20,503 nt of DNA, from the IMG/VR virus record IMGVR_UViG_3300048797_000080, positions 1 through 20,503 of that record. One strand, written 5' to 3'. Each line of letters opens with the position of its first letter. Positions within the stretch are counted from its first letter, which is position 1. The stretch is from a virus. This document shows, one piece after another, positions 943 to 20,503 of this stretch. The translations under genes were made by a program, and so were the position numbers. The notes beneath the pieces were generated by a model. It did not search any database. It was given only the letters and a program-made list of their open reading frames with translations, and was not told the origin of the DNA.

Positions 943-1017
943 CTACCTCCTCAACGCAATTTTAGGAACGAATAGCACGATTATTACAAACCCTAACCAC
1001 TTCACTGCACTCCACAT
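943..1017 (-). CDS. tiny single-span membrane peptide
   Basis: A 24-codon frame starts ATG at 1017. A 20-codon version starts GTG at 1005 and reads MKWLGFVIIVLFVPKIALRR. The GTG overlaps the stop of the upstream lipoprotein gene as GTGA and has GGAG 4 bases before it, the coupling style used elsewhere here. The peptide is one hydrophobic span with a Lys at the N-terminal end and KIALRR at the other. Its final AGG AGG codons form the ribosome-binding site of the next gene. It fills the whole gap between two lipoprotein genes and is below usual gene-finder limits. It may act in lysis or in the envelope, but no family is recognised. Confidence 0.5.
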   Translation of the reverse strand: MWSAVKWLGFVIIVLFVPKIALRR

Positions 1018-1316
1018 CCGTAACAATGCAACTGGTTGCAAGTGTTTTTACGAACAGTTAAACAAGACAACATACACGGGTTCGTTCTGAGGCAAGCCTG
1101 CGCGCAATCGGTTTGAGCCTTCGTGAGACACCGAGTTAGGTCGAATACTGGCGTCGGTGTCGGCGACGCAGAAACAGTTGGTGTTGCCACGACCGTAGGA
1201 GCCGCCGTAACGACTGGCGTACTAGACGCCGGAACCGGCGACGGAATCGGGGCCGGCGGATTCGTGCCGCAAGCAATCGCCGACACAACGAGAAAAGCCA
1301 AAAATAATCGCTTCAT
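1002..1316 (-). CDS. Cys-rich lipoprotein with Pro/Thr-rich linker
   Basis: A 104-residue protein beginning MKRLFLAFLVVSAIACGTN. It has a signal sequence with a possible lipobox (AIAC, Cys16). A linker of about 40 residues rich in Pro, Thr, Ser, Ala and Val (TPTVSASPTPTP) is followed by a compact C-terminal domain of about 45 residues with eight Cys (pattern C-x6-C-x3-C-x5-C-x3-C-x7-C-x4-C-x2-C). The architecture is export signal, flexible linker, Cys-rich head, as in the proteins at 5464-6587. The start has AAGGAG 7 bases upstream. The gene is far richer in G+C than the next one (43 of 60 bases at 1201-1260 against 28 of 60 at 661-720), suggesting separate acquisition together with the peptidase gene before it. 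Confidence 0.75.
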   Translation of the reverse strand: MKRLFLAFLVVSAIACGTNPPAPIPSPVPASSTPVVTAAPTVVATPTVSASPTPTPVFDLTRCLTKAQTDCAQACLRTNPCMLSCLTVRKNTCNQLHCYGCGVQ

Positions 1317-1318
1317 TA

Positions 1319-2143
1319 CTACGCTCCTTGTGTTGCCGCGATGTCGGCAGCCATTTGTTCAGCGTCAAAACCGGAGACGCTTGTTTTACCTGGTCCGACG
1401 GCGCTAGGGCTGATTATCGCCGTCGCCTGGTCGCAGAACCTCGCAAGCGCCGCAGCCGTCATGATGCGCGAACCACCCCAAGTGTTGATGACAATCGAAC
1501 CGTTTGAGCCAACTTTCAGGTCAGAGAAAACTGGTATTTCGTGCCCGCCGACAATCGGCGACGTTGTGTCGTCCCAAACGGGAGCGCTCTCCCATGCTTG
1601 TGGAAAGTGAACACCAATCGAAATGTTCCCACCCGACAGATTAAAGGCGATGAGAAATTCTTCGATGTCCTTCGGATTGACGCTGATGGCGGCGCCGATT
1701 TTATCATACGAGCCATCCGAGCAGCGCAAGCCAGTAGCCGTTAGATACTTCCACGCCGCAGTTGGGTCCGTTCCCTGGTCGGTAGCATTGGAATTATTCA
1801 CATCCCAACCAGTACATTCCGCGTATGCTTTAAGCGCAGCGTTTACCATATCTTGTTCGGAGGTCCATAACTGCTTGCCGACGCTCATCCCTGCGAGCGC
1901 CGCGCGGCGCACAGCAGCAGCAAAGACGCAATCGCCGACGCCCGATGCCGCAATCTGTGGCGGAGCGAGCGGGTCAGGACCGTTCGCCATGACCGCTATA
2001 TTGACAAAAGCCAGCGGTCCTTTCGCGGTTACGCTCACGTCCAATGGAACCGTTATTGGCACAGTTGACCGATTGAGGTACTTTGCAAAATGTAACATTT
2101 TCGGATTGTAGGTTGGCGGTTTGCGACCAAGTTTGAACATCAT
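1319..2143 (-). CDS. papain-like cysteine peptidase
   Basis: A 274-residue protein. The catalytic pattern of papain-fold peptidases is visible in order: GVGDC with Cys72 followed by a small-residue helix (VFAAAVRRAAL), GGHEIPVFSD with His201 leading a beta strand, and VINTWGG with Asn220 before Trp-Gly. There is no signal peptide, so it would need the holin or lysis to reach the wall. N-terminal MMFKLGRKPPTYNPKMLHF resembles a family of phage and prophage proteins that begin FKLGxKP and carry GDC and NTWG motifs (recalled). It lies just downstream of the transglycosylase gene, so peptidoglycan cleavage is plausible; cleavage of a host protein is the alternative. The start has AGGG 7 bases upstream. 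The gene is about 67% G+C at 1921-1980, unlike its upstream neighbours. Confidence 0.75.
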   Translation of the reverse strand: MMFKLGRKPPTYNPKMLHFAKYLNRSTVPITVPLDVSVTAKGPLAFVNIAVMANGPDPLAPPQIAASGVGDCVFAAAVRRAALAGMSVGKQLWTSEQDMVNAALKAYAECTGWDVNNSNATDQGTDPTAAWKYLTATGLRCSDGSYDKIGAAISVNPKDIEEFLIAFNLSGGNISIGVHFPQAWESAPVWDDTTSPIVGGHEIPVFSDLKVGSNGSIVINTWGGSRIMTAAALARFCDQATAIISPSAVGPGKTSVSGFDAEQMAADIAATQGA

Positions 2144-2923: not shown

Positions 2924-3199
2924 TTACCGACCTGACCAAATAAGAGGAAGAAATGTGGTTTTGAAGAAAGCGCATAAAATAAAGTTCAGCAACAGCACAA
3001 CTCCTATGAACATCAATAATGCGCTAAATACAGCCGGACGTGGCGCTGGAGGTGCTGCTCCTGGCCAAGCGCTGAATGGATTAAAGACGCTTATCCCTGG
3101 AAAGAAGGGACTTAGGATTAGTGTCAATAACCATAACGCGAATAAGATGACACCAGCCCACAATACCATGTTAAGTAAACAAATAATTACTTCGCCCAT
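2924..3199 (-). CDS. small membrane protein with two spans
   Basis: A 91-residue, very hydrophobic protein. Span one covers about residues 4-32 (VIICLLNMVLWAGVILFALW onward). A Pro-rich loop follows (AWPGAAPPAPRPAV), then span two at about 58-82 (ALLMFIGVVLLLNFILCAF), and a short basic end. No family is recognised. It lies between two other membrane proteins upstream of the transglycosylase and begins one base after the previous stop, with AAGGAG 7 bases before its ATG. A holin or antiholin role is possible from context only. Confidence 0.65.
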   Translation of the reverse strand: MGEVIICLLNMVLWAGVILFALWLLTLILSPFFPGISVFNPFSAWPGAAPPAPRPAVFSALLMFIGVVLLLNFILCAFFKTTFLPLIWSGR

Positions 3200-3200
3200 C

Positions 3201-3563
3201 TTACTTCTCCTTATCCTTACGGTTTTCTGAGATTCCTTTTAATTCACCCTCGGCCTTATTTGCTCGCTTCGCGTCTTTTCTTTGCAATTCTTCTAGCGCA
3301 GTCTTTTGGCTATTGAGCATAATATGCGTGTCATCTTGCTTTCGGTTCATCTCATCCATTGGTCGTCTTAGATATACAGCTACTAAAACAGAGGCTATCG
3401 CCGAAATGGTAGACGACACACCAGCTGCCACAATTGCTGTGATTAAAATGTTCCAATTAAACTCTTGTGCGATAGGAACACTTACCACAGCCCCAACTGC
3501 GGCAGCGATGAGGCTTTTCACAAAGATCACCAACACTTTAGCTGTTGTTATATGACTAGTCAT
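3201..3563 (-). CDS. membrane protein with cytoplasmic-type coiled coil
   Basis: A 120-residue protein. Two hydrophobic spans (about residues 10-32, VLVIFVKSLIAAAVGAVV onward, and 38-65, ILITAIVAAGVSSTISAIAS onward) are followed by RRPMDEMNRKQDD and a highly charged helical tail (EELQRKDAKRANKAEGELKG) likely to form a coiled coil. The start follows the previous stop with no gap (TAGATG), with GGTGG 9 bases upstream. It is the first of three small membrane genes before the transglycosylase. It could be a holin or an inner spanin; a spanin would normally have one span, which argues for the former or for another envelope role. No family recognised. Confidence 0.65.
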   Translation of the reverse strand: MTSHITTAKVLVIFVKSLIAAAVGAVVSVPIAQEFNWNILITAIVAAGVSSTISAIASVLVAVYLRRPMDEMNRKQDDTHIMLNSQKTALEELQRKDAKRANKAEGELKGISENRKDKEK

Positions 3564-5369
3564 CTAGTTTATCCACCCTGATTTAGCACAAGCACTAAAG
3601 GATCTTGTGTGCCCCACTATGTTGCCGCTAACTGTTGGAGGACATGGCAGTGGTTGATCTGTTTCAGAAGGTGTAGAAGTCGCTGTTGCCGTTGCGGTAC
3701 TCGTTGCCCCGCTCGTGCTGGTTGCCGTACTCGTAGTGGTAGCAGTCGCCGTCGATGTTGCCGTTGAGGTCGCAGTTGCCGTACTCGTCGCAGTTCCCGT
3801 GCTCGTCGGGGTCGCTGTGGGCGATGCTGTCCCTGTCGATGACGGAGCAGGCGTGCCGGTGAAGGTCGCAGTCGGGGTAGCCGTTGCTGTAGGCGACGCA
3901 GTGGCCGTGCTGGTTGCCGTCGCTGTCGCGGTCGCGGTCGCGGTCGCGGTCGCAGTCGCAGTCGCGGTCGCCGTCGCGGTCGGTGTTGGCGTGGCACTCA
4001 CCGTATTTCCACCAAGAAACGGAATCGATAATCCTTCCCCCGCAGTACTGAGGCTTATCGTCGCTTGCGCTGTCGGTGCAGTCGGTGTGCCACCCCCTGT
4101 TATCGGATATAAATCTCCGGCAAGTGATCCGCTAGCGTTGTTGATCGACGTAACAGAAGCCGAATTAAAAGGTGTGAAGTTACTAAAGGTACTATTAGTA
4201 AGATCACAAAATGCAGTTAGCAGAGAATCAAGACTTGTTGTTAGCTGACTCGGCGCACTTGCCGTCGTAGATGCGCTCCAAGGCGCTCCCCCTGCGGTGC
4301 CGTCTACCTGACACCCATTCAAACCTTTTATTGCACCGGATGCCCATACACCGGTACTGAGGATCCCTGCTGTTAGCGTAGGTGTTGTTGTGTTGATGCC
4401 AGAATATAAGCCGATGAGAGCTTGACATGAGCCGCTGACACTTCCGTTTGTTTGCTCTGCCAACGTGAACCCAGAACCAGTAACAGGAGTTGTGTTGCCT
4501 ATCGAGATGATCACGTATTCACAATCTGTAGAAGTGCTGCTCGCTAGTGTAGGAGTAATGGTCGAGGTTGAGGTAAACGCCCCACTCGTTGGTGATCCAG
4601 TCGGCGTGCCAGGAGCCTGCGTATCTGCCTTCCAGCAGGCCGTCACGCCGGTCGTCTGCGTGTTACCTGTATAGCTCCACGTCGCTAGCTTGCCCGTCCC
4701 CGATACAACCGTGATCGTGCTCGCGGTAAACAGCGACGGTCCAGCAGCCGTCATGTTATCGAGGCTAACCCAGTTACGGGGCACAGGTGATATGTTCGTA
4801 TTGGAATTGCCGCCCGGTCCGGCAGTCGGAGTCTTTGCGACGGTGCTGGCAGTCGCAAGACCCGCGAGACAGTAATCGGTTTGAACCGTCGTATTTCCGG
4901 TAGTGCCCGAGCCTGCCTGCGCTAGCGAAGCGTTTTTGATAACTCCCGCCACATCGAAGGTGCCCGCACCGCTGAACTCGACAACCTCTAGCGATGTAAG
5001 CCCATTTCCTGACGATAGCGTAATCGTAACTGTGGTCGCGGCGGTGTTGACGACAGGGCACTCCCAGATTTCGGTATCGGGATTTTGGCCGATATTCGCT
5101 GGTGTCCGTTTCGTGCAAGCTGTACCAGCACTAGGATTATTGCTCGTGACGGTCGCTGTGATCGTCGTGCCCGCAGTTCCCAGAATGACACCTAGTTTGT
5201 TGCCCGCTGCGGGCGTTCCTGCGGAACAAGTCGTAACAGACCCGCTCGGCGTCTGCGCGCTGCACGGAAAGTGAGCAACGGTCTGCGGCCCGTCGATGGC
5301 AAGCTGCGCCCGCGCCAGCGTCGGCAACAGCAGCACGAGGAGAGCTAGGACCGTGGCTATGCGCTTCAT
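3564..5369 (-). CDS. large exported protein: beta domains, Thr/Ala-Pro linker, Cys-containing end
   Basis: A 601-residue protein. The start at 5369 overlaps the stop of the small upstream gene as ATGA and gives a good Sec signal (MKRIATVLALLVLLLPTLARA). An in-frame ATG at 5387 with GGAG upstream is the alternative. After the signal come two beta-rich regions, about residues 25-235 and 255-455, in which strands alternate with Thr/Ser/Gly loops (ITATVTSNN, TVTITLSSG, LEVVEFSGAGTFDVAG). They resemble the repetitive beta-sandwich domains of phage and bacterial surface proteins. About 110 residues of Thr/Ala/Ser/Pro repeats follow, then a short end with two Cys (LPCPPTV, FSACAKSG). Enzyme motifs are absent. 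The protein is probably exported into the host envelope, where it could bind sugars or a surface protein. Composition changes sharply inside the gene. Confidence 0.7.
   Translation of the reverse strand: MKRIATVLALLVLLLPTLARAQLAIDGPQTVAHFPCSAQTPSGSVTTCSAGTPAAGNKLGVILGTAGTTITATVTSNNPSAGTACTKRTPANIGQNPDTEIWECPVVNTAATTVTITLSSGNGLTSLEVVEFSGAGTFDVAGVIKNASLAQAGSGTTGNTTVQTDYCLAGLATASTVAKTPTAGPGGNSNTNISPVPRNWVSLDNMTAAGPSLFTASTITVVSGTGKLATWSYTGNTQTTGVTACWKADTQAPGTPTGSPTSGAFTSTSTITPTLASSTSTDCEYVIISIGNTTPVTGSGFTLAEQTNGSVSGSCQALIGLYSGINTTTPTLTAGILSTGVWASGAIKGLNGCQVDGTAGGAPWSASTTASAPSQLTTSLDSLLTAFCDLTNSTFSNFTPFNSASVTSINNASGSLAGDLYPITGGGTPTAPTAQATISLSTAGEGLSIPFLGGNTVSATPTPTATATATATATATATATATATATSTATASPTATATPTATFTGTPAPSSTGTASPTATPTSTGTATSTATATSTATSTATATTTSTATSTSGATSTATATATSTPSETDQPLPCPPTVSGNIVGHTRSFSACAKSGWIN
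3668..4002 (-). repeat. degenerate 6-base tandem repeats coding a Thr/Ala linker
   Basis: The minus strand reads as runs of ACN GCN codons (Thr-Ala), broken by Ser and Pro codons, for about 110 residues. Codon third positions vary, so it is a coding repeat under amino-acid-level constraint as well as a DNA repeat. The purest stretch (GCGACC/GACTGC-type units) is at about 3920-3985. It links the beta domains to the C-terminal tail of the exported protein at 3564-5369. Confidence 0.85.
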
Positions 5370-5488
5370 TGACAACAATATGGACATGCCACACGCTCCG
5401 CTTCTGTGCCACACGCTGGCGTACTCGTTGGAGTTGGAGTAGCTATCAATAACAATAGCAACATTATTGCTTTGTACTTTCCATACAT
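5366..5488 (-). CDS. hidden 40-residue exported Cys-rich mini-protein
   Basis: The frame starts ATG at 5488, inside the end of the upstream gene, and stops TGA at 5366-5368, which overlaps the next start as ATGA. The product begins MYGKYKAIMLLLLLIA (basic n-region, hydrophobic core), continues TPTPTSTP, and ends in a Cys-rich tail (ACGTEAERVACPYCCQ, five Cys including CPYCC). This is the architecture of its neighbours in miniature: export signal, Thr/Pro linker, Cys head. A second possible start, ATG at 5464, overlaps the upstream stop as TAATG. GGTGG lies 7 bases before the first ATG. The fit at both ends argues that it is real despite its size. Function unknown. Confidence 0.6.
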   Translation of the reverse strand: MYGKYKAIMLLLLLIATPTPTSTPACGTEAERVACPYCCQ

Positions 5489-6054
5489 CCTATTTCCACC
5501 GTTGCCGTTTCACCAGAGCACATGATTACTTGGGGATCACAAAAAGTGATGCTCTGTCCAGCAAGTACACGAGAACCACGAGTGGGCGACGTATGACCCA
5601 CGTCACCAAGACGAACCGCATTTGTGGCATCATGATTATCGCATCGCACACATATTCTGTTATACAGCCAATCCCCCGTATTAGGTACAGGCGTGGAAGC
5701 GGGGATAGCGGTTGTGGCTGCAGTTGGACAACTCACTGGCGTAAAGGCAAAGTGTGCCGGCCCTCCTGGAGCGTATGTGGGTGTAGCCGTAGGGGTAGCC
5801 GTCGCCGTACTCGTTGCCGTAGCTGTAGCAGTACTCGTAGCCGTTGCAGTAGCGGTCGCTGTGGCCGTACTAGTCGCCGTAGCTGTGCTGGTGGCTGTCG
5901 CGGTTGCAGTAGAAGTGGCCGTAGCAGTAGATGTTGCTGTGGCCGTTGGGCTCTCTGTCGCTGTCGCTGTAGGCGACGATGTTGGTGTAGGAGTTGCCGA
6001 AGCGGCCCCAACCAACAATAATGAGAACACTATTGTGAATATTAGAGACCGCAT
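5464..6054 (-). CDS. exported Thr/Ala-linker protein with Cys-containing domain (second copy)
   Basis: A 196-residue protein. The start at 6054 is chosen because AGGAGG lies 6 bases upstream; longer versions to 6060, 6084 or 6108 lack a suitably spaced site. The first 20 residues (MRSLIFTIVFSLLLVGAASA) form a Sec signal with an AxA cleavage site. About 75 residues of Thr-Ala/Ser-Thr/Pro repeats follow, then a domain of about 95 residues with six Cys: SCPTAA, RICVRCDNHD, TFCDPQ, IMCSGE, IGCME. Its signal and linker closely match the next gene in transcription order upstream (6042-6587), but the C-terminal domains differ, so the two are paralogues with exchanged or diverged heads. The CVRC pair could bind metal or form a disulphide. 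It overlaps the upstream gene by 13 bases. Confidence 0.75.
   Translation of the reverse strand: MRSLIFTIVFSLLLVGAASATPTPTSSPTATATESPTATATSTATATSTATATATSTATATSTATATATATATSTATATATSTATATPTATPTYAPGGPAHFAFTPVSCPTAATTAIPASTPVPNTGDWLYNRICVRCDNHDATNAVRLGDVGHTSPTRGSRVLAGQSITFCDPQVIMCSGETATVEIGCMESTKQ
5775..5996 (-). repeat. degenerate 6-base tandem repeats coding a Thr/Ala linker
   Basis: The minus strand carries about 75 codons alternating Thr (ACN) and Ala (GCN), with Ser and Pro at intervals, inside the gene at 5464-6054. Synonymous positions are varied. It is the second of three such tracts in 3 kb. Confidence 0.85.
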
Positions 6055-6587
6055 ACCCATCCTCCTGGTTTTTTCATTGCCCATGATCCTGTTCCTGTTC
6101 CTACGCAAGCGGCCCCTCGTGCAGCCCCATCTTGCGAACCGTTACAATTTCCGCAATATAACATTGTACCCACTAATTGAGAAGGCCCATAACGAGATGA
6201 ATCGGTCAACCCATTAAATTGTACTCCTGGCGTTGCACAGCCATTAGGGCAGGACGTGTAACTCAGCGCCTGTTCACGCATAGGATACGCAGGAATAGGC
6301 GTGGCCGTTTGAGTTGCTGTCGCAGTCGCTGTGCTGGTAGGAGTCGCCGTTGCCGTTGCTGTAAAAGTAACTGTTGCAGTGGCAGTAGCTGTCGCAGTTG
6401 CTGTTGGCGTAGCAAGTGCAGTAGACGTTGCCGTAGCCGTGGCGGTGGCAGTCGATGTGGCCGTAGACGTTGATGTAGCCGTTGCGGTTGCAGTACCTGT
6501 GGGACTGGCCGAAGGCGTCGGCGTCGCTGTTGCATGAGCAACTCCTACCAAGATTAGCGAGAAGATTACTGTAAAGATTATCTTCAT
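6042..6587 (-). CDS. exported Thr/Ala-linker protein with Cys-containing domain (first copy)
   Basis: A 181-residue protein. The ATG at 6587 overlaps the tail-fibre stop as ATGA and has GGGGAG upstream; a frame extending to 6635 would add a hydrophilic tail that hides the signal. Residues 1-19 (MKIIFTVIFSLILVGVAHA) are a Sec signal. About 78 residues of Thr/Ala/Ser/Pro repeats follow. The C-terminal domain of about 80 residues has six Cys in pairs (SCPNGC, YCGNC, AACVGT, WVCGL), suited to disulphides in the periplasm or to a zinc knuckle. It is the first gene after the fibre anchor, where T7-like phages carry fibre shaft, chaperone or lysis genes. A virion role is unlikely given the signal. 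An envelope role during infection, such as receptor masking, is inference. Confidence 0.75.
   Translation of the reverse strand: MKIIFTVIFSLILVGVAHATATPTPSASPTGTATATATSTSTATSTATATATATSTALATPTATATATATATVTFTATATATPTSTATATATQTATPIPAYPMREQALSYTSCPNGCATPGVQFNGLTDSSRYGPSQLVGTMLYCGNCNGSQDGAARGAACVGTGTGSWAMKKPGGWVCGL
6300..6530 (-). repeat. degenerate 6-base tandem repeats coding a Thr/Ala linker
   Basis: About 75 codons, mostly Thr-Ala alternation with Ser and Pro interruptions, within the gene at 6042-6587. It is the first of three related tracts. The plus strand across it reads as Val-Ala runs, which explains spurious open frames there. Confidence 0.85.
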
Positions 6588-7099
6588 AGACTCACATCTC
6601 CCCAAGGAAGCCACACGGTTCCTGACCATACCCAACCAAAGTTACCGGAAGCAGGATTAGTGCTTTGATACCATTGGCCAGGAAATGTGCCGTTAGATAC
6701 TGGAGGACCAGGCGCTAGTCCTAAGAAAAGCGTCTGTTCCTGAGCGATCAGGGTCAATTTATCCAACGCATGCTCAAGTACATTGGCCGGAAAAGAGTCA
6801 TCGTCTATATAGTGAACCAATTGTGTCTTCTGCGTACCACGTGTAACAAATAAACTCCCACCGCCACCTGGTAATACAGGAGCAAGAGTAATATCAACAC
6901 CCTCAGGATAAGCGCCATATTCATCTGCTGTACCTGCCAAAGTGTAATCTGCATTAAGCACCAACTGTTTAGAGTTATTGTTGGCATCCGTGTACCAGAC
7001 AATTAAGTCAGAGAACTGGAACAAGTAATATGGGTAAGGAAATACTGTCGTAATTCCATCCGTATTGTACTTTATAAAGAACTGAATGCCAGTTACCAT
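6584..7099 (-). CDS. tail-fibre anchor protein, T7 gp17 N-terminal domain only
   Basis: A 171-residue protein. Residues 1-130 match the T7 tail-fibre N-terminal domain (Phage_T7_tail type): an early FIKYNTDGITTVFPYPYYL motif, a YTDAN strand, LNADYTLAG, VDITLAPVLPGGGGSLFVTRGT, and a late helix HALDKLTLIAQEQ. In T7 this domain docks the fibre onto the adaptor and nozzle. The remaining 40 residues are Gly/Pro/Trp-rich (SGNFGWVWSGTVWLPWG). T7 gp17 has over 550 residues; here the shaft and receptor-binding tip are absent. The start overlaps the gp16-like stop as TAATG, with AGGAG 7 bases upstream. It probably acts as an adaptor for another receptor-binding protein encoded elsewhere, or as a stub when the nozzle itself binds the host. 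Confidence 0.85.
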   Translation of the reverse strand: MVTGIQFFIKYNTDGITTVFPYPYYLFQFSDLIVWYTDANNNSKQLVLNADYTLAGTADEYGAYPEGVDITLAPVLPGGGGSLFVTRGTQKTQLVHYIDDDSFPANVLEHALDKLTLIAQEQTLFLGLAPGPPVSNGTFPGQWYQSTNPASGNFGWVWSGTVWLPWGDVSL

Positions 7100-10000
7100 T
7101 ATGGCGCTCCTATCGTCGCATGACCACCACTCATTTCTTCTCTACGCTGGCCCTGACGATCACGTACTCGGTCACGAAGATCAGGATTCTCTTTCATAAG
7201 CTGAATTCTAGCGTGCTCCAAATATTGAAGGCTTATCTTGTCCAACTTGTCGGCCTGCCAATATTCAGTGTGGCCTTTATAATAATCTTTATTCATCTCA
7301 TTCTGCATGGCATCATGCTGATTAACTCCGCCTATCGTTAACTCATGCCCAGCTAGAACGGAGAGACGGTCGTGTAGTCTGGCAGCTTCTACGACATCTG
7401 TTGGGTGATATGCGACTCCCACCTTGGGGCTGTTGGCATCGGACGTAATGCCTTGCGGCCCAGCGCCGCCGATAAACATTTCGGGAACATTACGGTCGTT
7501 AGCGCCCACGCGCATCCTTTCTACATCTACAGGATCAGGCTTATTTATCGTAGAAAGATGGAACGGGTTAAAGAGGTATAGTGCCGCCTCCAATGGGCTA
7601 GGTGGCACTTCATCGTGTTCATAGCCAGGGGGCACATATTGCGGGTAGCCCCAATGATCTCTCTTCAGTGGAACGCCTGCTCTTGTATAAGGGTTGTCCT
7701 GGGCCAACCGCTGTATGGCCGTGTTGGATTGTTTTATCGTGGGGTCCAAAGACTCGGATATTTGCTTCAGTATCTCAGGCCTGATCCCTGTGCTCATAGA
7801 GTCGGCCAGTCGGCCTTCCATATCTTTAAAATCGCCCCTGCCTGCTGACTGAATAGCCTGTTCTAGATAGCCTACTTGATGCATCAAAGGCAAATGATCT
7901 ACGAGTCGAGCAAATGCCGTAGCCACGTGAGCCACGTATGCGCCCTTATTCTCTGGTGTAGCCGCGTGGTAACTCTCCGCCGCATTAGCCCCCAATGCTA
8001 TCATATTACTTAATGGGCCCAGGCCTTCGTAACTGACATAGTGTCCAAATGCCCCGATAGACCTATCCGGTATGCCCATCTCTTTACGCATACGGGCTTG
8101 ATTTGGATCCACTGGGCCATCTCCAGTGATTAAATGGCTACCAGCCGCAAGAAAGATACCTGACATAATAGAAGAGCCAACGGCCATTTTAGTTGCGGCT
8201 AGCCGTTTAGATTCAAAATCTCCTGTCCAACCTGCACTTTCCTTCATAGCTAGAGCCATGGGGCTATTAATAAACGCCTGTTTCATCAAATTGAACGGGG
8301 TCTTGACAAACAGACCGCCAAGCAACCGGCCCCAATGAAACTCTGGGGTGTATGCGGTAGCTGGGATGACTCCTTTGCTCAGCACATCCTGTACCGCTTT
8401 AGCTGCATTATTGTCGCTAGTGAAGGTTAGCTGGTATGTTTCATTGTTAGCCGCTTTTGTCAACCATTCTGGCTGATCATTAATGTACTTTTCAGCCTGC
8501 GCCTTAGCAAAAGTAGCGCGGTCCATAAAACCTATGCCTTGGGCATCAGCATCCTGCAACCCTTTAACAGTGGCTGCTGTGCGAATAGCGGCGCGTTGGG
8601 CAAAGGTCTTGGCAAATTGGTCTTCGGCTAATATCACTCGTGGTCCAGCATTAAGTGTCATTCCAGCCAGGTTCTTTAATTTTGCCATATTAGCGGGGTT
8701 GAAAGCACTGGCCGTTCCCTGAATAGCCTGCCCAGGATTAGTCTCGTAATCTTCGCCAAATACGGTCGAAGTATTCTCGGGTGCCTTTAGCATCCCCAGT
8801 TCTTTCTCGGCCACCCGTTCTCCCGTGGCATAAGATTTTGCCCCATATATAGTGGCATCGCCCACGGCATCACGAGCACCCTTCATGGCCGCGCCCCAAA
8901 TAGTAAAGGCATCTTGGGGATGGAAACTAGCCACATGGGCTAGGCCTTTGACAATATTGTTATAAGGCAGCCATGCTAGGTCAGTAGCTGCCTTGGCCAG
9001 CCACAGGTGAGGATTAAACAATGCAGCAGAAACAGCCACGTTGGCTGGATCCATATAGTGGTGCCAGTCCATAATCTTAGCCGTTTTGGCTAGTCTCGTT
9101 GCTGGCGTCCCTTGCTGAGAGCCAATAGTCGTAAGCAAATCGCTACTCTGCACCGCGGTCTTAGCTGTTTGAGTGGCTACGTCGACATTACCGCCTAGGC
9201 CCAGAGCCTTATCCAAATGGTTAAGTTTAGCCGACTCATGGGTAAAGAGATCCCCTATAAGCGACACACGATTGCCATCGTCAGCAGCTGCCGCCTTGAT
9301 GTGCTCAGCGCTCAACTTGGCTATATTGGTTATTGAAGTATCCTTAGCCCCCTGATAATCGGTCTTTTCGCCGTCAGTCAATGGTGTGCTGGGGTTTCGG
9401 TTAATGGCCTTATTTACGACAGGTTCATTCTCTTCTATTCCTATGTCCTTAGCCGTTTGTCCCAGAGCATAGACCCGAGAGTCCTTGGCGGCTTGGACTA
9501 TACTGTCCCCGCCCTGCTTCATTGGCTCTTTTATCTGGCTTTCGTCCGGTGAAGCATTAGCTACTGTGCTGGTAAGTTTAGATACAGCGGGGTTATTCTT
9601 TCCTTCTTCGACAGCAGGCCTTTTCTCTAAAATATCCCCTTTAGCTATTGGCGCTATATCTGTATTATCTACAGTATATTCATTATCGCCGGTCTTCTTT
9701 ATCGTAGATCCTCTCGGCAGCACCCATTCATCTTCTCCATTAGTGTGCGCTGTAAGATTTCCCACACGGCTTCCAGCCAAAACAGTAATCTTTTGCGGAG
9801 GAATTATTTCTTCGCCAAAAGTGGCCTTGGAATTATCAGGATCAGCATAACTTTTGGCTTCTTCTTCATTTTTAGTGAGAAAAGTATAGCCCTTTTCCGG
9901 AGAACCTGTTGGTGCATGTTCAGAAGCAGCAATGCCGCGATAAAAGACTGTGTCTTCTTTTAGTGGTTTTGTACTATTGATGTGGTCATCTACAGCATCT

Positions 10001-12177
10001 ACAACACGCTGTTGAACTGGCGCCAGATCTTTTCCTCCCCTAAGAGCAGTATTTATGCTACCAGCGCCTTCAGTTCTATCAACTTCATCAACACCAATAT
10101 CAATGCCCTGATTTTTAGCAGATTCTACACTGGCCTTATCCCACTCTTTACCAGTAAAGAAATTGAGGGCTTGTGTGTCTTTTCCTTCGGCCGCAGGCTC
10201 TTGCGCTTCGGCCGTATTCCTCAGCTTAAGTAGCCTGTTCGCTCTAGCCTCGGCGCTGACCAATTTGACCGGCAGCCCTGCTTTCTGAATTCCTGCGGCG
10301 GCTTTCTCTTCTAAGGTTTGAGGAGCAGCAGTTTCTGTAGATGCTTTTTCTGCGTATAATTCTTCTCCACGTAAAGGCACTCTACTATTATCTGGTTCCG
10401 TATCCTCGCTATAAGGACGACCAATTGCAGCAGATGCCTCCTCTCTAGTATAGTATTTTCCCTTAGAATCCACATACCCAGCCTCAAAATCTCCCACGCG
10501 GCCTTGTTCTTTCTCCACTCTCTCAATAGGATCTGCGTGAGTTTCTCCTAACGCTCCAGGGTAAACTTTATCAGTTGAGATATCTCTTACCGCCACTCGA
10601 AGACCCATGTTTTTTGCGGTATTTAAACTTGCTACAGATTCTTCTTGCTCCGCATCTTTTGAAATTGTTGGTTTTGCTTCAGCCTCCAGATTAACATTCC
10701 AGACTCCGTCTTTATCTTTTACAGGTGGACCAGAAACCTTATAAGATCCTCCTTCAGGAAGAGCATATTCCCCAGTTCCTTCCCCAATTTCTACTCCCTT
10801 ATGAGCCCCATTCTTGCTTGTATAATTAAGAACAATACCCACAGGCTTTTCATTAGCTTCATGTGTAGCATATTCATTAGCCACTTCTTTATCAAAAGCT
10901 GCACTCGTTATTTCTTTATGTGTAATTATTGCTCCAGGCTTAAACCTGTCCAGTACCTGGGCATCAGTATCATATTTTTCACCGCGATACAGTGGGTTCC
11001 CTTCATTAGAAATCTCACCAGACGACGCTGCTGAAGCAACCTTGGTATGAAGATCCTTATACTTAGCTATCTCCTCTTCACTAAGAGTAGAGCCATTATA
11101 TGGCACTCCAGGCTTTATTTTTCCTGTCGCCGCAGCTTTGGCCAAGTCAGCATTTCCAGTCCAATCAGAGGACTCCTTTTCTGTCAAGGCTGGCCCAACC
11201 TTCTTGGCCGATTCACTAGCTGTCGCTGGCCCCTCCATCACCTCGGGTTCTACATGCTTTAGGCCCACAGGATCGGACATAGTGTGCTGCGTATCTTCCA
11301 TAGCGGCCTTAACTTCGGGCATTTCGGCCGCAGTACGCAGGAACGGGACTTGATTTAATGCCTTGCCACCAATGGCAAATCCAGCCAGGCCACCAACCAA
11401 ACTTACGGCCGCTTTTGTCTTCCATCCAGCGTTGGGGAAGACCTTGGACACCACAGCCTCAGCCCCATCTGTGGTGAGATCGGCCATCTTAAACAGCATG
11501 GAGGCTTTGGCTATTTCAGCTGCCACCACACCCGTAGTGACAGCAGGAGCAGCAGTAATCCCAGCAGCAGCAACAACGCCATAGCCCCCGATAGTGCTGA
11601 GAGTCTTCGCCACAGGTTCCAGCTCACCAGCTTCTTTTTCTTCTTTAGTAGCAGTTTCACCAGCCTTCTCACCTGCTTGCTGTTCGGTCTGTTGCTGTTG
11701 CTTTAATGCACCGCCTAATTCTTGTTGTATCTTATTTACATTATCTTGGCTAAGGCCCGATCCCTGTAGTGCCTCGGCCCTAGCCACTGGGGACATGGCT
11801 TGCAGGGCACCAATCTTTTTAGATAAATCCTTCGTCCTTTGCATCTTAGCCATAAACTCGGAGTCCATGCCAAAGTCAGAAGGCTGATTGGTCAATACTG
11901 CGCCAGAAAGATCACCATGTGTCCATGCGGGTGCTGCTTCTGGCTCCGGAGCCTTGGACGCTGGGCCAGTAGCATTTTCGGGAGAAGAAACAGGAACGGG
12001 TGGGGTGGTCTTGGCCGCTGGAGCAATGGCATCAGCAACTGATCCAGCTGCTGATGTGACAGCACCCTCAACTGAGCCAACGGCTGACGTAACTGCACCC
12101 TCGGCACGATCCTTAGCGTCGCTGATCTGTGTCAACGGGTTGAGGTTCTTTGTTGCTTCTGGTATTCCGCCGCCCAT
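7099..12177 (-). CDS. gp16-like internal ejection protein with two ADP-ribosyltransferase-like domains
   Basis: A 1692-residue protein at the gp16 position. Residues 1-180: low-complexity Ala-rich start with a duplicated 11-residue unit, then Gln/Glu-rich helix. Residues 192-222 and 256-271 are hydrophobic and may insert in the host membrane. Residues about 335-500 form a first ADP-ribosyltransferase-like domain: LYRG (Arg398), ITSAAF (Thr424-Ser425), GTGEYALPEGG (Glu470). Residues about 680-830 form a second: FYRG (Arg747), TFLTKNEEEAKSYA, GEDEWVLPRG with Glu815-Asp816-Glu817 (ExE). The C-terminal 750 residues carry the helical pattern of podovirus ejection proteins (ILAEDQFAKTFAQR near 1180, GLFVKTPFNLMKQAF near 1293). 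T7 gp16 has a transglycosylase domain near its N-terminus; none is seen here. The protein is presumably ejected into the host, where the second domain could modify a host target using NAD. Its start overlaps the gp15-like stop as TAATG with only a weak binding site. Confidence 0.8.
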   Translation of the reverse strand: MGGGIPEATKNLNPLTQISDAKDRAEGAVTSAVGSVEGAVTSAAGSVADAIAPAAKTTPPVPVSSPENATGPASKAPEPEAAPAWTHGDLSGAVLTNQPSDFGMDSEFMAKMQRTKDLSKKIGALQAMSPVARAEALQGSGLSQDNVNKIQQELGGALKQQQQTEQQAGEKAGETATKEEKEAGELEPVAKTLSTIGGYGVVAAAGITAAPAVTTGVVAAEIAKASMLFKMADLTTDGAEAVVSKVFPNAGWKTKAAVSLVGGLAGFAIGGKALNQVPFLRTAAEMPEVKAAMEDTQHTMSDPVGLKHVEPEVMEGPATASESAKKVGPALTEKESSDWTGNADLAKAAATGKIKPGVPYNGSTLSEEEIAKYKDLHTKVASAASSGEISNEGNPLYRGEKYDTDAQVLDRFKPGAIITHKEITSAAFDKEVANEYATHEANEKPVGIVLNYTSKNGAHKGVEIGEGTGEYALPEGGSYKVSGPPVKDKDGVWNVNLEAEAKPTISKDAEQEESVASLNTAKNMGLRVAVRDISTDKVYPGALGETHADPIERVEKEQGRVGDFEAGYVDSKGKYYTREEASAAIGRPYSEDTEPDNSRVPLRGEELYAEKASTETAAPQTLEEKAAAGIQKAGLPVKLVSAEARANRLLKLRNTAEAQEPAAEGKDTQALNFFTGKEWDKASVESAKNQGIDIGVDEVDRTEGAGSINTALRGGKDLAPVQQRVVDAVDDHINSTKPLKEDTVFYRGIAASEHAPTGSPEKGYTFLTKNEEEAKSYADPDNSKATFGEEIIPPQKITVLAGSRVGNLTAHTNGEDEWVLPRGSTIKKTGDNEYTVDNTDIAPIAKGDILEKRPAVEEGKNNPAVSKLTSTVANASPDESQIKEPMKQGGDSIVQAAKDSRVYALGQTAKDIGIEENEPVVNKAINRNPSTPLTDGEKTDYQGAKDTSITNIAKLSAEHIKAAAADDGNRVSLIGDLFTHESAKLNHLDKALGLGGNVDVATQTAKTAVQSSDLLTTIGSQQGTPATRLAKTAKIMDWHHYMDPANVAVSAALFNPHLWLAKAATDLAWLPYNNIVKGLAHVASFHPQDAFTIWGAAMKGARDAVGDATIYGAKSYATGERVAEKELGMLKAPENTSTVFGEDYETNPGQAIQGTASAFNPANMAKLKNLAGMTLNAGPRVILAEDQFAKTFAQRAAIRTAATVKGLQDADAQGIGFMDRATFAKAQAEKYINDQPEWLTKAANNETYQLTFTSDNNAAKAVQDVLSKGVIPATAYTPEFHWGRLLGGLFVKTPFNLMKQAFINSPMALAMKESAGWTGDFESKRLAATKMAVGSSIMSGIFLAAGSHLITGDGPVDPNQARMRKEMGIPDRSIGAFGHYVSYEGLGPLSNMIALGANAAESYHAATPENKGAYVAHVATAFARLVDHLPLMHQVGYLEQAIQSAGRGDFKDMEGRLADSMSTGIRPEILKQISESLDPTIKQSNTAIQRLAQDNPYTRAGVPLKRDHWGYPQYVPPGYEHDEVPPSPLEAALYLFNPFHLSTINKPDPVDVERMRVGANDRNVPEMFIGGAGPQGITSDANSPKVGVAYHPTDVVEAARLHDRLSVLAGHELTIGGVNQHDAMQNEMNKDYYKGHTEYWQADKLDKISLQYLEHARIQLMKENPDLRDRVRDRQGQRREEMSGGHATIGAP
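9600..11120 (-). other. AT-rich island coding the ADP-ribosyltransferase-like modules
   Basis: Within one reading frame the base composition falls. Counted by hand, G+C is 23, 20, 22 and 24 of 60 in lines 10801, 10861, 9841 and 9661, against 31-33 of 60 in lines 9121, 8821 and 11341. Codons there favour A/T third positions on the coding strand. The boundaries are approximate. Confidence 0.7.
12037..12102 (-). repeat. duplicated 11-residue unit in the ejection protein start
   Basis: Residues 26-36 (EGAVTSAVGSV) and 37-47 (EGAVTSAAGSV) differ at one residue, followed by a partial third unit (ADAIAPAAK). The DNA copies have several synonymous changes, so this is an old duplication kept at protein level. 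It is Ala/Val/Ser-rich and possibly amphipathic. Confidence 0.7.
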
Positions 12178-19546: not shown

Positions 19547-20503
19547 CTATGGCTCAACCGTGGCGCACTGAACAACCTTCACTTCTTCGATCCTGGTTGA
19601 CCCCATTACCATCTCCATATAAAGCTGAGTGGTAAAGGACAGGTCGGCTCGCTCTGCCATCTTAGTGATGACTTCTTCTTGTACCGCTAGACCAACCCCA
19701 GAGTGACAATAGAAAAGGGATAGTCTATCTCCAGTATTCACACCAATGCCGGCATTTGCCGGATAGCTAATACCAAAGGTGACGCCACCAACTAAAGGAA
19801 GACGGTTTGACATTATGAACTTAAAGCCCATAAATGTGTCGACTGCGCCTTCCACCAGAGCTTTTACGCTATTGTAGTCAGCGCTGGTTATTTGTGGCTG
19901 TGAGAGCATCTGGGTCAGACCGTAAGGCGAAATAGCCGCATAACGCTCTTCATCAGGATCAACATCGGCCAAATCAAATTTCAATTTAACCGAACGAAGA
20001 CGCTGTACTGACCAGCGACCACCGTCATTGGTCCCTGGCTGAAGCGTACTATCGTTATTGAGAGCAGCATCGCCCAAGATCTGTGCATTCGAGAAAGCGA
20101 CAGCAGTCTGACCATCACTACCAGCCTGCGCAGTACCAAAAGCACCAGCGATGATGATATCGTCCTTAAGACGACCAAAAGCATTCGCAGCGTTAATGGT
20201 GTAATCGCTTTCAGGATTAATCAGCACCTTCAACTTATCATCGTTGTCAACGGTGTCCCCCCAATTGTACGTGGCCATCGAAACGCGCCTGCGTGAATGG
20301 GGCGTGCTGATTGCTGGAGTCGGAGCGGCACGACTCACTTTCTGTACGGCCGCAGTTGCGCCAATACGCTCAAAATAATAGTTCATTCCCACTATATCCG
20401 GTTGACGCCGGACAGTGGACTCTAGACGAGAGCCTTTCTGCTGAGACAGGAACGTGACGTTGTCCCTGTACATCTGCACAAAGGCTTGATCAATCGATGT
20501 AGA
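19547..20503 (-). CDS. major capsid protein, 5' end outside the window
   Basis: The frame is open to the window edge; eight codons (STSIDQAF) precede the first GTG at 20479, which would cut into a conserved segment, so the true start lies upstream. At least 318 residues are visible. The pattern matches the podovirus capsid family often called Phage_capsid_2: FVQMYRDNVTFLSQQKGSRL, VGMNYYFERIGATAAV, STPHSRRRVSMATYNWGDTV, then DDIIIAGAFGTA and a C-terminal TTQLYMEMVMGSTRIEEVKV. Such proteins form the icosahedral shell and are expected to have the HK97 fold. It is the first visible gene of the operon; portal, scaffold and terminase should lie beyond 20503. Confidence 0.85.
   Translation of the reverse strand, partial: STSIDQAFVQMYRDNVTFLSQQKGSRLESTVRRQPDIVGMNYYFERIGATAAVQKVSRAAPTPAISTPHSRRRVSMATYNWGDTVDNDDKLKVLINPESDYTINAANAFGRLKDDIIIAGAFGTAQAGSDGQTAVAFSNAQILGDAALNNDSTLQPGTNDGGRWSVQRLRSVKLKFDLADVDPDEERYAAISPYGLTQMLSQPQITSADYNSVKALVEGAVDTFMGFKFIMSNRLPLVGGVTFGISYPANAGIGVNTGDRLSLFYCHSGVGLAVQEEVITKMAERADLSFTTQLYMEMVMGSTRIEEVKVVQCATVEP

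Follow-up and report, generated by a model that had tools for sequence, protein, structure and literature searches.

A putative papain-fold peptidase and a neighbouring lipoprotein at the end of a lysis-like gene region in a 20.5-kb virus record

Genes of the window and origin of the peptidase-lipoprotein pair

The window, by which we mean the whole stretch of DNA analysed here, is a virus record of 20.5 kb (20,503 nt; G000) whose main genes lie on the minus strand. The major head protein (19547 to 20479) shows 39.8% identity to that of Pelagibacter phage HTVC010P. Past the head gene come tail, internal virion and tail-fibre genes, and these are followed by a putative lysis region (Table 1). 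Because the gene order past the fibre region is lysis-like, the peptidase and lipoprotein genes end what reads as a lysis cassette, in which the holins are candidates only. The SLT match of the lysozyme-like gene reaches 20.2 bits, just below the cut-off of 21.3. Promoter- and terminator-like sites near the cassette were not above those in shuffled sequence, and an Rfam search gave no match.

Table 1. Genes at the putative lysis end of the window
Feature	Position	Strand	Basis and remarks
Membrane protein with charged C-terminal tail, holin candidate	3201-3563	minus	Weak PHROG holin rows, best E 0.059
Small membrane protein, holin candidate	2924-3199	minus	Open reading frame and reading
Small membrane protein, holin candidate	2608-2922	minus	phrog_1544 (no function assigned); 4-base overlap with the start of the SLT gene
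SLT-type transglycosylase/endolysin (lysozyme), 124 aa	2237-2611	minus	Pfam SLT E 4.6e-4; 93 bases upstream of the peptidase gene
Putative papain-fold peptidase, 274 aa	1319-2143	minus	phrog_19005 match; C72, H201 and the invariant residues N54 and D122; hydrophobic export signal absent
Cys-rich lipoprotein, 104 aa, 9 Cys	1002-1316	minus	N-terminal lipobox; 2 bases past the peptidase gene
Second lipoprotein-like gene, 110 aa	609-941	minus	LAGGC lipobox (by reading); next downstream

Two other features of the window were seen by eye. The 1692-aa internal virion protein (7099 to 12177, minus strand) has two stretches, at about residues 390 to 480 and 740 to 825, that resemble ADP-ribosyltransferase domains (YRG...ITSAAF...EYALPEGG and FYRG...FLTKN...EDEWVLPRGS), judged against what we take to be the motif of these enzymes. 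A sequence search of solved structures with these stretches gave no match at E <= 10. Long Thr/Ala/Ser repeat stretches (TATATA...) occur in three window genes (3564 to 6635, minus strand) and in one gene of the phage contig L009 (10396 to 10944, minus strand).

A sequence-only reading had described a peptidase gene and a Cys-rich lipoprotein gene as a pair, and the two minus-strand reading frames are indeed there, two bases apart. It also put them at about 67 to 72% G+C and took them for a separately acquired module; the G+C figure does not hold over the genes. The G+C content is 54.6% over positions 1002 to 2143 (lipoprotein 54.6%, peptidase 54.8%) against 49.1% for the window; the higher values are found in only 3 of the 21 printed 60-base lines (lines 1201, 1861 and 1921). 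G+C at third codon positions is raised in the peptidase gene (0.575, z 5.5) and in the lipoprotein gene (0.533, z 2.5) compared to 0.412 over 13 other genes. The repeat-rich gene at 3564 to 5414 is biased as well (z 6.6), so that composition by itself is a weak argument for acquisition. The nearest peptidase homologue found, with 50% identity, lies in a 59% G+C locus of L009, a 31-kb phage record that shows no match to the window capsid gene. The nearest relative by tail gene, L076 (66% identity), is a 43.8-kb record that shows no match to the window peptidase or lysozyme; both records may be incomplete. Together with the raised third-position G+C, these two records favour exchange of the peptidase gene between phages. 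Separate acquisition is therefore plausible for the peptidase gene; acquisition of the pair as a unit would be a further assumption.

Family, fold and conserved residues of the peptidase

The window peptidase matches the profile phrog_19005 (E 3.3e-16), as do all 37 aligned family members, and this profile carries no function in PHROG. No Pfam and no NCBIfam family was found for the window protein. Among the 37 members, Pfam Peptidase_C1 gave one weak row (E 0.13), CHAP and NlpC_P60 gave no row at E <= 1 (11 Pfam rows in all), and NCBIfam gave weak rows for single members, the best at E 0.008. Searches of annotated phages and plasmids gave no match to the window peptidase, and a first single-protein scan of viral contigs returned no relative. 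A pattern scan yielded 59 loci, 50 of which encode a peptidase relative at E < 1e-6, a second scan yielded 52 viral loci, and a genome scan yielded 13 loci, in Gordonia, Mycobacterium, Williamsia, Nocardia, Diaminobutyricibacter, Methylobacterium, Xanthobacteraceae, Thermoleophilia and others. By the genome scan, the family thus occurs in Gram-positive hosts too. Residues and flanks were counted over 66 non-redundant loci, copies more than 90% identical having been removed, and the near-duplicate loci L096 and L123 were left out of the searches of 50 records.

An AlphaFold2 model of the 274-aa protein, built from the family alignment, has a mean pLDDT of 85.8. Structure comparison aligned 210 residues of this model with xylellain (3ois; Z 19.5, rmsd 2.7, 17% identity) over residues 1 to 247, including the N-terminal segment, and procathepsins matched at Z up to 16.2. 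The papain fold proposed in the sequence-only reading is supported by this predicted structure. The best rows in a sequence search of solved structures, 4glw at E 0.0057 and, over 50 residues, an NlpC/P60 chain at E 0.09, were taken as chance matches.

Cys72, the residue singled out in that reading, is conserved in all 66 non-redundant relatives, a count that is biased because most relatives were found via patterns containing GDCV. Three relatives reached through a lipoprotein instead (L135, L137 and L138) retain the Cys, in the motifs GNC, SDC and SNC. Among members with a residue at the site, His201 is conserved in 64 of 64 and Trp222 in 63 of 63; besides Cys72, the residues Asn54, Asp122, Tyr107 and Gly124 are invariant over the 66 members. 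A hydrophobic stretch before Pro33 was found in none of the 66. The product is therefore a putative soluble cysteine peptidase with a modelled papain fold and without an export signal. As an observation on the motif itself, GNC, SDC and SNC are natural variants of the GDC active-site motif.

The catalytic site differs from that of papain. Asn54 presumably occupies the place of Gln19, the oxyanion Gln of papain; that Gln is absent and Asn is found in 66 of 66. The spacing from Asn54 to the Cys is six residues in 63 of the 66 members, 18 in the window and L009, and 16 in L032. Only these last three members have the corresponding insert of 10 to 12 residues that separates the invariant Asn from the catalytic Cys. 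The window residues N220-T-W align to what we take to be the catalytic Asn of the papain N-S-W motif. At this site 55 of the 63 members with a residue there have Val or Ile, Asn occurs only in the window and Asp in L009, so that most members have to rely on a different third residue or do without one. Asp122 is a candidate for the third catalytic residue, by its invariance in the alignment. The window protein also lacks His79 (His in 62 of 66) and His147 (His in 61 of 66) and, with its Asn at the papain Asn site and its 18-residue spacing, is a divergent member of the family.

Lysis genes and lipoproteins beside the peptidase gene

In a Pfam scan of upstream neighbours (102 of 113 picked reading frames), the 25 of 42 families that were listed include GH25 (four rows), PG_binding_3 (four), GH108 (three), Amidase_2 (three), M15_4 (two), Phage_holin_10 (two), and Amidase_3, DPBB_1 and an Rv2525c-type hydrolase (one each), together with many rows unrelated to lysis (sulfotransferase, Mu-like gpT and terminase among them). 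Downstream neighbours (45 of 49 reading frames) gave a mixture in which most rows, among them endolysin, holin, integrase and methyltransferase, occur once. When whole records were searched, GH108 was found in 4 of 50, Amidase_2 in 3 and GH25 in 7, and 11 of these 14 matches lie on the same strand 183 to 1804 bases upstream of the peptidase match; the other three, all GH25, are 8.5, 24 and 68 kb away. M15_4 was found in 3 of the 50 records, one match being above the cut-off and beside a GH108 gene. In MW202816 an annotated amidase gene overlaps the peptidase gene by 10 bases. Searching the fetched flanks, we found a holin-like family, so named from its likeness to the Phage_holin_10 neighbours, on the same strand within 1 kb at 11 loci, two of them near-duplicates; it was not found in the window. 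By reading, the order in L135 is M15 peptidase, GH108, papain-like protein, lipoprotein, peptidoglycan-binding protein and holin-like protein. In the Mycobacterium locus L064 (4909 to 5784, plus strand) an upstream cutinase-like gene resembles, by reading, mycobacteriophage lysin B.

The link to lysis genes is strong and not universal, as 36 of the 50 records showed none of the three families sought (GH108, Amidase_2 and GH25) and copies in L009, L013, L016 and L062 lie beside genes read as terminase, antirepressor or other non-lysis genes. An action of the peptidase on the wall, suggested from the window sequence, has become more likely through the neighbouring lysis genes. An alternative is that the gene serves lysogenic conversion or counter-defence, the peptidase acting on host proteins in the cytoplasm or envelope, with the lysis cassette as a common insertion site. 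This would agree with the patchy occurrence of the family, with the copy in Komagataeibacter phage phiKX1, whose neighbouring genes bear the annotation hypothetical or phage protein, and with the copies near regulator- or terminase-like genes. We consider it improbable, however, as unrelated hydrolases and holin-like genes recur nearby on the same strand in different phages.

The window lipoprotein (1002 to 1316) has a charged and hydrophobic N-terminus followed by a lipobox-like AIAC, a Pro/Ser/Thr-rich linker and, by reading, 8 Cys in its last 42 residues. A Shine-Dalgarno-like AAGGAG for its gene sits within the 3' end of the peptidase gene. A scan of viral contigs returned no relative of this protein. 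In PHROG it gave six function-less rows up to E 1, none of them a spanin; the best, phrog_15511 (E 0.001), falls on the Pro/Ser/Thr-rich part, and we took it to be compositional.

A different lipoprotein family, of mutually homologous members, recurs in 13 of the 66 non-redundant loci, and its profile does not match the window lipoprotein. Its members share an invariant lipobox Cys, two further conserved Cys and a C-terminal VNGVxVxGxFV-like segment. Eight members gave only two chance-like rows and no spanin in PHROG at E <= 0.1, and 14 members gave only weak rows in Pfam and NCBIfam (best E 0.0024 and 0.002, respectively). The model of this lipoprotein is of medium confidence (pLDDT 67.5) and had no match among solved structures at E <= 0.001, which is not proof of a new fold. 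Other lipoproteins occur as well. In phiKX1 a different one (phrog_28078, no function assigned) overlaps the end of the peptidase gene, and in L072 another lies upstream of the peptidase gene. In L009 the product of a gene 118 bases downstream has a membrane segment and a Pro/Ser/Thr-rich stretch similar to that of the window lipoprotein. Different envelope proteins thus fill the same slot.

Several counts bear on the pairing. Lipobox reading frames on the same strand within 300 bases of the peptidase gene were found in 13 of 127 flanks compared to 9 of 1681 farther 300-base bins (Fisher p 1.6e-10), and on the opposite strand they are also somewhat denser near the peptidase gene (3 of 127 compared to 9 of 1681). 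An earlier, downstream-only test of 55 loci, in which the near-identical L036 and L038 were counted separately and control genes came from crude reading-frame calling, gave 9 lipoproteins compared to 3 of 544 control genes. The 300-base flank count and the search for the recurrent family combined mark 16 of the 66 non-redundant loci; the other 50 have no recognised lipoprotein beside the peptidase gene. In whole records the recurrent family was found in 11 of 50, with one copy each, on the same strand, upstream of the peptidase gene in three and downstream in eight, at 23 to 781 bases (these distances, like those of the hydrolases, are between matched segments and not gene ends).

Reciprocally, three single-protein scans with the recurrent lipoprotein returned eight loci, three of which are in new records. 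All three have the peptidase, encoded on the same strand ahead of the lipoprotein at a distance of 11 to about 500 bases; in L138 two small reading frames separate the two genes. In the whole-record check of these three, the matched stretch crosses stops outside open frames. Their GNC, SDC and SNC motifs are the ones missed by the peptidase patterns. The idea of a peptidase with an envelope partner is thus supported, in that the arrangement recurs in a minority of the relatives, although the lipoprotein of the window is not homologous to the recurrent one.

Possible role in lysis and relation to known systems

We propose, with a slight leaning in its favour, that the peptidase is an accessory lysis enzyme released by the holin, which in some phages has an envelope lipoprotein as a partner. 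By analogy with classical endolysins, the peptidase would stay in the cytoplasm until the membrane is opened by the holin. The freed enzyme may then cut peptide bonds of the envelope; its neighbours point to stem or cross-link peptides of peptidoglycan as the most likely ones, and it would thereby complement the glycan- or amide-cutting endolysin that is often encoded just upstream. In some phages the lipoprotein from the nearby gene would sit in the envelope and anchor, activate, restrain or complement the enzyme, with an effect in either direction; in the window an unrelated Cys-rich lipoprotein would hold the same slot. This proposal builds on the genes themselves, the modelled fold, the conserved Cys and His, the missing export signal and, for part of the family, the association with lysis genes and lipoproteins; from these we infer the activity, the release through the holin, the substrate and the role of the lipoprotein. 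A papain-shaped enzyme beside a wall-dissolving enzyme and, in several other viruses, a lipid-anchored protein suggests an unrecognised helper pair for host lysis.

When the pair was sought in bacterial genomes, an adjacent same-strand lipoprotein was found in 3 of 5 proteobacterial loci but in 0 of 8 loci from other hosts (p 0.035; several of the 13 are metagenome assemblies). In L075 (Thermoleophilia) there is an adjacent lipoprotein gene on the opposite strand. The proteobacterial skew fits a lipoprotein role tied to the second membrane, while the peptidase also occurs without the lipoprotein, and these 13 genome loci suggest that the hosts of the paired phages are diderm. Possibly, then, the pair takes the outer-membrane step in place of spanins: the peptidase would cut protein tethers that join the wall to the outer membrane, and the lipoprotein would direct the enzyme to them. 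The skew would be explained, and the pair-carrying L135, L137 and L138 do read as lysis cassettes. Still, we regard this as unlikely, as Gram-positive genomes contain the peptidase as well, there without the lipoprotein, and L135 and L137 encode, by reading, a membrane and coiled-coil protein that may be an inner spanin.

The lipoprotein could also be an inhibitor or immunity protein that shields the envelope of the infected cell from premature peptidase or from the enzyme released by neighbours. Its small size, the two conserved Cys besides the lipobox Cys and the close linkage in either gene order would suit such a role. On the other hand, the peptidase has no signal to reach the periplasm ahead of holin action, and the lipoprotein model neither supports nor rules out an inhibitor fold, so we give this explanation little credence.

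Compared with the accessory, holin-released peptidase proposed above, a broader version goes further: a widespread and undescribed two-gene module, in which a holin-released papain-fold endopeptidase and a lipoprotein perform the envelope step of lysis in diderm hosts as an alternative or helper to spanins, with different phages recruiting unrelated lipoproteins. We hold this version to be rather doubtful. With the accessory role, a function that can be tested is assigned to a phage protein family that has none and to a lipoprotein family without a convincing match in three profile libraries. If the pair does act in lysis, a cysteine peptidase and an envelope partner would join the holin, endolysin and spanin, and would provide a new kind of enzyme to try on Gram-negative envelopes.

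Among the papers listed in our literature search we recognised none on the peptidase family, its lysis context or its lipoprotein partner. The parts of PMC5411513, PMC9862828 and PMC9703825 that were available concern other proteins, and the available part of PMC8566455, on Komagataeibacter phages, has no mention of lysozyme, holin, endolysin, protease or papain. The profile phrog_19005 represents the same family as the window peptidase, to which fold, context and partner are added here.

In Rz/Rz1 spanins a lipoprotein is part of the lysis cassette. The recurrent lipoprotein differs in having no PHROG spanin match (eight members), and its neighbour here is a soluble papain-fold protein. CHAP and NlpC/P60 endolysins and Tae amidases belong to the papain-like superfamily and serve phage lysis or wall attack (PMC10318531). 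Compared with these, the best fold matches of the window family are xylellain and cathepsins. The model also matches the fold of viral proteins from phages and giant viruses that are named Peptidase C1 in BFVD, among them A0A6J5TCZ4 (E 1.5e-6) and A0A6J5LAR6 (E 1.7e-6) of uncultured Caudovirales phages, at 11 to 13% identity.

Papain-like genes in phages are not new, since xylellain-type C1A peptidases have been acquired by Myoviridae and Siphoviridae, according to the part of PMC10380794 that was available. The short C1A peptidases of this type are the best fold match of the window model (3ois, Z 19.5), whereas identity to xylellain is only 17% and the window peptidase has no Pfam Peptidase_C1 match. 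Compared with papain C1A enzymes, the family has Asn for Gln and, in most members, Val or Ile for Asn. What further sets it apart from the xylellain-type peptidases is its lysis-gene context and its lipoprotein partner.
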